Shown here piece by piece: positions 28,435-64,000 of a stretch of DNA of 64,000 bases. The position numbers and the translations under genes are program-made. The notes under the pieces were generated by a model. That model worked only from the letters and a program-made list of their open reading frames with translations, did not search any database and was not told where the DNA came from. The stretch comes from Salegentibacter sp. (GTDB taxonomy: Bacteria; Bacteroidota; Bacteroidia; Flavobacteriales; Flavobacteriaceae), in the NCBI GenBank assembly GCA_024635795.1, contig JAGXIH010000013.1, forward strand, positions 157,566-221,565, read 5' to 3'. Each line of letters opens with the position of its first letter. The stretch's first letter is position 1.

Positions 28435-28575
28435 TCCGGGTGTAGCCCTTCGACATGTCTCTTTCGAGACTTGCTCAGGACAGGCTCTACCTCCTTATCG
28501 CGCCGATCGCGATTCAAAAATTTTCGGGGTGTAGCCCTGACCTTCGTCAGGATGAACTCCGCCCGGTTCCCGGTC
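28435..28575 (+). repeat. Two interrupted partial copies of tRNA-Pro 5' region
   Basis: CCGGGTGTAG (28436-28445) and CGGGGTGTAG (28525-28534), each followed by a REP-like insert then CTTATCGCGCC or GCCCGGTT, as in the intact tRNA-Pro. Confidence 0.55.
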
Positions 28576-28635
28576 TATTTTAAAAGACTTGGAACCAAAA
28601 ACTTGAAACATTGTACTACAACGTAAGTTGTACTT

Positions 28636-28710
28636 CGGGGTGTAGCGTAGCCCGGTTATCGCGCCTGCTTTGGGAGCAGGAGGCCGCAGGTTCGAATCCT
28701 GCCACCCCGA
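28636..28710 (+). tRNA. tRNA-Pro(TGG)
   Basis: CGGGGTG...CACCCCG acceptor, anticodon TGG, GTTCGAATC T-loop. Confidence 0.94.
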
Positions 28711-28713
28711 CAA

Positions 28714-28750
28714 AAAAAAGCCCTGCACAGAAGTGCGGGGCTTTTTTGTT
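28714..28750 (+). terminator. Intrinsic terminator after tRNA-Pro
   Basis: AAAAAAAAGCCCTGCACAGAAGTGCGGGGCTTTTTT. Confidence 0.85.
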
Positions 28751-28755
28751 GCTTC

Positions 28756-29187
28756 AAGGCGAAAGCTTGCTTTCAGGCCGAAGAGGCAACAAAAAAGACC
28801 AAGCAGGCGATAGCCTGTGGGCTTTCCTTTGTCACTTCCCCCACTCAGGATCACCGACCAGAGGGAGGTAATCCTCCTGTAAAAATTAAGGCGTGAGCTT
28901 GCTCACAAGCCGCAAGAACAACAAAAAAGAACCGACAGGCATTAGCCTGAGGGCTTTTCTTTGTCACTTCCCCCACTCAGGATTACGGACCAGAGGGAGG
29001 TAATCCTGAAGTTGAAGCTGGAAGTAAGAATCACGAATTGCTTCCAAGTAAATAATAGAAGGCCCTGAACTTAAACCCGCCCACAAGCAGCAAGACCAAC
29101 AAAAAAGACCTGGCAGGCGTGAGTCGGCTTTTCTTTGTTATTTCTCATTTCTCCATCCAGAATCATCGACTGCAGGGAGGTAATTCT
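28756..29187 (+). repeat. Tandem array of three ~120-bp degenerate structured repeats
   Basis: Units ~28756-28875, 28888-29007, ~29061-29187 share CAACAAAAAAGAnC...CAGGC..., CACTTCCCCCACTCAGGAT...GACCAGAGGGAGGTAATCCT (third unit diverged). Confidence 0.85.
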
Positions 29188-29374
29188 CATATTTTTTCAA
29201 GGAAAAAGTGACCTATTCGGTTACCTAAAACAAAGGCGACGAAATCAAAAACTGTTATAAAATGCTCTGATTTCTTTATCAGTATTTCTCTGAGCCTACA
29301 CAGGGAATAAATTCAGGTATTAGAGTATGAGGTTTACATACAAACGCCTTCCTGTTGCTGTAATCTTAGATCCA

Positions 29375-63725: not shown

Positions 63726-64000
63726 GTGTGCCCAGCATGGGCATCTCTTAATATATCGAAGATATATTATTAATCTAGAGGGTGCAAGTCCCTTATGGGC
63801 AGGGGTGACGCCCTGAACCATTAGTAAGCCGCAAGGTTGCCAACTGTGAAGTTGGGACTAAAGGAAGCGGGACTACAAACCCTGGTACTGACGAACAGGA
63901 ACCGGATATGAGGCTGCAAGGTTGGATGAGCAAGCACATCATTGTGATGTCCTAAACATTTCTTTCGAAATGAATACCGAAGTAGTAGATCCGGCAGGAA
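63726..64000 (+). mobile_element. Group II intron, 5' end and domain I (continues beyond window)
   Basis: GTGTGCCCAGCATGGGC 5' end; GGTGCAAGTCCCTTATGGGCAGGGGTGACGCCCTGAACC...AGTAAGCCGCAAGG...ACTAAAGGAAGCGGGACTACAAACCCTGGTACTGACGAACAGGAACCGGATATGAGGCTGCAAGG as in bacterial group II domain I. Confidence 0.8.

Follow-up and report, generated by a model that had tools for sequence, protein, structure and literature searches.

Directly behind the tRNA-Pro(TGG) gene of the window, by which we mean the whole stretch of 64,000 nucleotides that was analysed, three similar units of DNA follow one another, and they raise the question of what kind of feature they are and whether the pairing that they preserve belongs to an RNA or to a DNA. 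Repeat comparison located these tandem units, already proposed in a preliminary description of the locus, on the 3′ side of the tRNA gene, with u1 at 28756-28876, u2 at 28888-29010 and u3 at about 29070-29190, and u2 showed 83% identity to u1 over 120 nt at a spacing of 132. The two compensatory changes that had been read from the units are indeed in the sequence: hairpin 1 passes from GAAAGC-TT-GCTTTC to GTGAGC-TT-GCTCAC, and the last hairpin from AGGAT/ATCCT to AGAAT/ATTCT.

The repeat locus behind tRNA-Pro

The features of the locus are listed below, where R1 is the covariance model of the unit and R2 that of the full element.

28636..28711, plus strand: tRNA-Pro(TGG), the docking gene (ARAGORN; Rfam RF00005)
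Within 28636..28711, plus strand: T-stem 3′ strand of tRNA-Pro, AATCCTG plus CCACCCCGAC, the sequence copied at the far end of the elements
28709..28752, plus strand: T1, trailer and intrinsic-terminator hairpin, ACAAAAAAAAGCCC-TGCACAGAAGTGC-GGGGCTTTTTTGTTGC (sequence; inverted repeats I1-I5; element MFE, L008; model R2)
Within 28709..28752, plus strand: T1 5′ arm, which is P1 5′ of the four-way junction, and T1 3′ arm, which is P2 5′
28758..28779, plus strand: H1 of unit 1, GGCGAAAGC-TT-GCTTTCAGGCC, loop gCTTGc (sequence, folding)
28786..28833, plus strand: P2 3′ arm GCAACAAAAAAGACC, H2 and P1 3′ arm GGGCTTTCCTTTGTC of unit 1 (sequence, inverted repeats, folding)
Within 28786..28833, plus strand: H2 of unit 1, CAGGC-GATA-GCCTG, with a cGNYAg loop
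28846..28875, plus strand: H3 of unit 1, CAGGATCAC..GTAATCCTC, a hairpin like a T-arm, with a 3′ strand that is a copy of the tRNA-Pro T-stem 3′ strand
28888..29010, plus strand: unit 2, short, without a tRNA end or T1 of its own (similarity to unit 1; R1 and R2 matches)
28890-28911, 28919-28965 and 28978-29008, plus strand: H1, H2 with its arms, and H3 of unit 2
29070..29190, plus strand: unit 3, a degenerate short unit (repeat comparison, folding, R1 match)
29195..29262, plus strand: relic of an island once integrated at tRNA-Pro, with remains of its arm sites and integrase start, GTGACCTATTCGGTTACCTAAAACAAAGGCGACGAAATCAAAA (comparison with congeners)

The arms whose likeness to the tRNA-Pro terminator had been noted do pair over a long range: each of u1, u2 and u3 is complementary to T1 (28709-28752; inverted repeats I1, I2, I4 and I5). 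As this complementarity involves both flanks of the middle hairpin of each unit, T1 has to be regarded as part of the structure. The third unit is degenerate, with H1 missing, H2 disrupted and H3 retained as AGAAT/ATTCT. Compared with shuffled sequences, the plus-strand fold gave z values of -2.1 for u1, -2.9 for u2 and +1.55 for u3, the last being no better than the shuffles, and R1 still detected u3 (E 5e-18). For the island relic that follows u3, three congeners (L278, L279 and L287) carry the counterpart with intact repeats and the gene start directly 3′ of tRNA-Pro.

Two further observations concern the surroundings of the locus. Upstream of tRNA-Pro, at 28436-28590, there are stretches like the 5′ half of the gene (CGGGGTGTAGC.., ..CCGCCCGGTT.., TTATCGCGCC) with hairpin-like sequence between them, and similar stretches precede tRNA-Pro in L004 and L006. 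At 63840-64000 the window contains a match to a group II intron domain (RF02001, 94.9 bits) that is cut by the window end.

A covarying four-way junction

Homologues revealed the order of the full element, namely tRNA end, P1 5′, T1, P2 5′, H1, P2 3′, H2, P1 3′, linker and H3, in about 170 bp devoid of ORFs, so that a unit begins at the tRNA end and is closed by H3. P1 encloses three helices (T1, H1 and H2), which results in a four-way junction that is seen in single-sequence folds of many genera. The hairpins noted at the outset are real, but they are arranged in a junction that includes the tRNA terminator and not as separate hairpins in a chain. In the GC-rich genome of L156, T1 lacks a T-run and yet P1 and P2 are perfect, so that these arms are not by-products of A/T runs. 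Tandem arrays often include copies of the tRNA 3′ end, and some contain 5′-truncated units without tRNA end and T1 that keep the common H3 end (u2 and u3 of the window, L095, L106). Behind two tRNA-Pro genes of genome G250 (L106 and L107), arrays of 5′-truncated units have the absent part replaced by the repeat GAAATAGACCCTGAATCAAGTTCAGGGTGACA.

Three units of a single window prove little about covariation, and it is the homologues that supply the evidence. In a model-fitted alignment of 108 distinct elements, two-sided changes occurred in 46 of 48 pairs and 91.8% of the cells were paired, with a covariation score of 0.620 compared to 0.157 for shuffled and 0.06-0.10 for slid alignments, values that reflect an alignment fitted to the structure. 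Fitting biases an alignment towards the model, and a second, unfitted test therefore combined the 5′ arm of one element with the 3′ arm of another. The best stems of own versus swapped arms scored 25.8 and 14.0 for P1, 32.2 and 19.4 for P2, 12.7 and 8.2 for H1, and 15.8 and 8.4 for H2 (z 26-50), kinship among elements being still included in both tests. The initial claim of selection on structure instead of simple duplication is supported in part, in that pairing is kept despite drift across many genera and families, but duplication is also involved, as arrays grow in tandem units.

Covariation could also arise without selection through template switching in quasi-palindromes, a known mutational mechanism that keeps the arms complementary and agrees with perfect arms that differ freely among loci. 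As a general explanation it is very improbable, given that it predicts neither the conserved loop classes, arm order and spacing nor the different loop type of T1, and that palindromes free of selection should be lost by deletion. The same process, acting as concerted correction of palindromes, is a possible source of part of the compensatory changes.

Loop types: RNA or DNA

The preliminary description had left the structure as either RNA or single-stranded DNA, and the loop types favour, by inference, the second. Loop classes, which were called from folds with loop bonuses off, were 53 GNRA versus 6 GNYA in T1 and 12 GNRA versus 40 GNYA in H2 (Fisher p 3e-13, with copies that are not all independent), whereas GNA triloops were found in 17 of 158 T1 and 62 of 158 H2 hairpins. 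Moreover, H1 loops were CNNG in 108/158 elements and H3 loops GNA in 80/174. GNRA loops are expected of an RNA terminator, whereas GNA, GNYA and CNNG are stable DNA loop classes; the DNA loop motifs cGNNAg and gCNNGc, together with GNA triloops, were reportedly described by Nakano and colleagues in 2002. Because the classes contrast within one and the same element, the sequences suggest, indirectly, that T1 works as RNA and the remaining hairpins as DNA.

The same data bear on a reading in which the whole element is RNA. In the tyrT operon of E. coli, rtT repeats occur in tandem directly 3′ of a tRNA gene, each with a copy of the tRNA 3′ end. By analogy, read-through of T1 would produce from the tRNA transcript a four-way-junction RNA with a T-arm-like end. 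The strand-specific placement 3′ of tRNAs, the strong covariation, a T-arm mimic potentially seen by RNase P or Z, and tandem repeats with tRNA ends as in rtT would all fit. Such an RNA is nonetheless unlikely, as most copies have a strong intrinsic terminator in T1, with the remainder of the element lying past it, and the loops of H2 and H3 are GNA/GNYA rather than the GNRA of T1. It also has no Rfam counterpart: only tRNA and the group II intron exceeded the gathering threshold in the window, no family matched in ten tRNA-less element loci, and the rtT (RtT) covariance model matched neither at the gathering threshold nor with E relaxed to 5. A known RNA family was rejected at gathering and relaxed thresholds alike, in keeping with the first impression that no described feature type matched, at least among Rfam families.

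Elements at the ends of tRNA genes

A single unit used as DNA query reached only congeners and one further genus. With R1, matches were found in 60 of 249 Flavobacteriaceae genomes. In the genus of the window the presence is patchy (4 of 15 genomes clearly positive). R2 detected 5 to 30 copies per genome in 24 genomes picked for having R1 matches, spread genome-wide, as well as copies in other families and classes of Bacteroidota. All 174 distinct elements lie directly 3′ of a whole tRNA or of a tRNA 3′-end fragment, and the docking tRNAs include Pro, Ser, Met, Val, Leu, Arg, Lys, Phe and His. The repeats had been rightly placed at tRNA-Pro, but what defines the feature is its link to tRNA genes at large, not the window locus. 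An ARAGORN-recognised tRNA, of 13 isotypes, precedes 135 of these elements; of the other 39, some follow an unrecognised tRNA, some the tRNA 3′ end within an array, and some a short 3′ fragment of a tRNA after foreign DNA, the last being attR-like scars. Elements occupy 16 of the 31 tRNA transcription-unit ends of G257, and 12 such ends in G250.

A 25-nt pattern of H3, independent of the model and containing no tRNA sequence, was used for an exact scan of 84,980 species genomes. It returned 45 records, all titled Bacteroidota except one MAG. Of 55 occurrences, 40 lie on the 3′ side of a tRNA at no more than 450 bp, the usual distance being 130-156 bp, and contig edges account for most of the rest. 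The exception, L324, labelled Euryarchaeota archaeon SP189, has its H3 match 136 bp behind a tRNA-Pro and is probably a misbinned Bacteroidota contig. An origin in phages or plasmids was rejected: phages gave no match, plasmids a single trivial one of 36 nt to a terminator-like stretch, and viral contigs matched the pattern only in unrelated sequence.

Genome G257 harbours a second class of tRNA-linked repeats, at L248, L249, L252, L254 and L241 (behind tRNA-Gln, Gln, Met, Asn and Leu), sometimes in tandem, with the order terminator, inverted T-arm-like sequence, hairpin (for instance AAATGTCCACCGGACATTT) and the tRNA 3′ end, copied exactly or nearly so.

Palindromic repeats with DNA-type loops bring to mind REP sequences mobilised by a Y1 (HUH) transposase of the RAYT type. 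The probability of such movement is close to negligible, since Y1_Tnp is absent from the element-rich G257, G250, G275, G243 and G212 and occurs several times in element-poor genomes, a lack of co-occurrence that goes together with a placement confined to tRNA ends.

A copy of the T-stem at the far end

The match between the 3′ strand of H3 and the cognate T-stem 3′ strand begins at about position 60 of the tRNA. Compared with positions 57-67 of the cognate tRNA, H3 had a local score of 13.4 versus 9.0 with other isotypes, the cognate being better in 131/135 cases, and in 103/128 cases its own tRNA also surpassed tRNAs of the same isotype whose T-stem differs. Identity specific to the tRNA jumps at positions 63-64 (0.76 and 0.65 versus 0.26 and 0.37) and fades past 65, and nucleotide 59 is the A of the element itself, also in cases in which the tRNA has G, T or C there. 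In 20 of the 174 copies, compared to 0.6% for mispaired tRNAs, 12-28 nt of the tRNA 3′ end recur as an exact direct repeat, which in most single copies has decayed to the T-stem only. After this repeat there is a further terminator in L180 (Phe, 21 nt) and L110 (Arg, 17 nt). In L042, three units with 75-82% mutual identity are joined at exact tRNA-3′-end junctions. Such divergent units with exact junctions, the direct repeats and the constant breakpoint are what repeated insertion into the T-loop predicts. The linker before H3 was considered as a mimic of the cognate acceptor stem and dropped as a general rule, since its score (11.3 versus 9.8), obtained jointly with the H3 5′ strand, came mostly from H3.

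On these grounds, we see an even chance that the elements are ORF-less mini-elements site-specifically recombined into the tRNA T-loop, bringing a replacement tRNA end and a terminator and acting as folded DNA. A non-autonomous element of about 170 bp would insert at the T-loop/T-stem boundary, around nucleotide 59/60, and would supply the terminator T1 together with a substitute for the final ~14 nt of the tRNA, so that the tRNA would stay functional; T1 would in this way be the reason for tolerance by the host. The palindromic core (P1, P2, H1 and H2) could form a four-way junction, and the right half of the terminal T-arm-like hairpin H3 would be the displaced T-stem half-site. A recombinase acting in trans, on folded single-stranded or cruciform DNA, would join H3 or a free element to the T-arm wherever the 3′ end of a tRNA matches. 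This would account for tandem accretion, for the direct repeats of tRNA 3′ ends and for exchange between isoacceptor genes whose ends are alike. We found no recombinase or transposase within the element or regularly beside it, and XerC/XerD or the integrases of visiting islands may be candidate helpers. Genomes G257, G250 and G170 contain just 3-6 PF00589 genes despite their 20-34 copies, and tyrosine recombinases number only 4 in G257 and 3 in G250. Simple integration does not predict the 5′-truncated units, and short arrays without tRNA end and T1 need another process than insertion at the T-loop.

Inheritance, transfer and islands

When lineages were compared with the tRNA-derived parts taken out, the nearest relative sat on the same isotype in 99 of 126 elements (about 19 expected), in another genome in 73 cases and in the same genome in 26 (0.5 expected). 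Nearest neighbours were frequently the same tRNA in another genus, and most copies accordingly look old and vertically inherited, which speaks against insertion. Such isotype-bound relationships imply that element lineages are tied to tRNA ends and for the most part inherited, and that elements are also transferred from one isoacceptor gene to another.

The main rival to mini-elements, with the rtT-like RNA coming next, builds on this inheritance: a resident DNA structure of tRNA gene ends, vertically inherited and selected as DNA, whose T-stem copy would be kept by selection and not by insertion, and which might serve as a bidirectional double terminator, insulator, fork barrier or integrase decoy. 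The same-isotype neighbours across genera, the occupation of about half of the G257 ends and of those in G250, and the DNA-type loops all suit it. So does the arrangement at G257:C1:816332-837431, where an island of ~21 kb lies between tRNA-Ser(tga) and its element, with a 13-nt scar of the tRNA 3′ end and an integrase gene near the far end, close to the scar, as islands of this kind insert upstream of the element and push it away. We nevertheless consider a resident structure rather unlikely in view of the patchy presence in the genus of the window, the exact tRNA-3′-end repeats, the second terminator behind some copies, and the divergent units joined at exact tRNA-3′-end junctions.

Alternatively, elements could be footprints, attP-side modules remaining after the loss of tRNA-integrating islands, as the relic directly behind u3, the order element, arm sites and integrase in L003, and the many attR-like scars adjoining elements might indicate. 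This origin appears decidedly unlikely when some 30 elements are set against one or two non-Xer integrases per genome; moreover, the islands of congeners have other sequences at this place, and the G257 element lies outside its island.

Returning to mini-elements inserted at the T-loop, a broader and more tentative possibility is that they form part of a phylum-wide set of tRNA-customised DNA elements that lack their own integrase and recombine in folded form, as single strands or cruciforms, that class II relatives (Gln, Asn, Met and Leu) follow the same logic, and that much of the tRNA set of some Bacteroidota may have been edited at its 3′ ends by such satellites.

Significance and comparison with known systems

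Mobile DNA of bacteria docks mainly at tRNA genes. If true, a protein-free family that is tailored to each tRNA and found on up to half of the tRNA transcription-unit 3′ ends of a genome would add a new participant at such sites, with a bearing on the evolution of tRNA ends, on how islands find their sites and on the annotation of tRNA terminators. In addition, with RNA-type loops in T1 and DNA-type loops in the other hairpins, the element offers a clean test of DNA versus RNA hairpins. A literature search, the coverage of which excluded most subscription journals, found no description of it, and we regard it as a previously undescribed, protein-free element at the 3′ ends of many tRNA genes across Bacteroidota.

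Among short mobile repeats, REP/BIME sequences with RAYT and MITEs are likewise non-coding, palindromic and presumably moved in trans, but the element is not dispersed intergenically and shows no short random target duplication. Integron attC sites share imperfect palindromes, conserved unpaired bases, possible recombination as folded single strands and organisation in arrays. The element differs from them in its anchoring at tRNA genes, the absence of gene cassettes and a general lack of the core boxes RYYYAAC/GTTRRRY, as the H3 arms GGATCAC/GTAATCC agree at best in 6 of 7 positions and the AAC/GTT part varies. CIMEs, the att-flanked remnants of integrative elements, also lack an integrase and have att-like flanking repeats; they are kilobase-long and heterogeneous, unlike the uniform small structure seen here. 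With islands, ICEs and prophages integrated at tRNAs by tyrosine integrases, the element has in common the proposed T-loop crossover, tandem accretion, the replaced 3′ end and a duplication of the tRNA 3′ end from the T-loop on (12 nt or more in the 20 copies mentioned, the T-stem only in most). It differs from them in the lack of an integrase or any other ORF within its ~170 bp, in its conserved fold, and in its tens of copies on many isotypes. The rtT repeats, finally, are also tandem and carry tRNA 3′ end copies behind a tRNA gene, but they belong to one tRNA locus in enterobacteria, with no described four-way junction or tracking of the T-stem. The element would work like tRNA-targeting integrative elements and resembles rtT, yet departs from the former in having no integrase of its own and from the latter in giving no match to the rtT covariance model, and it has a fair chance of deserving a class of its own.
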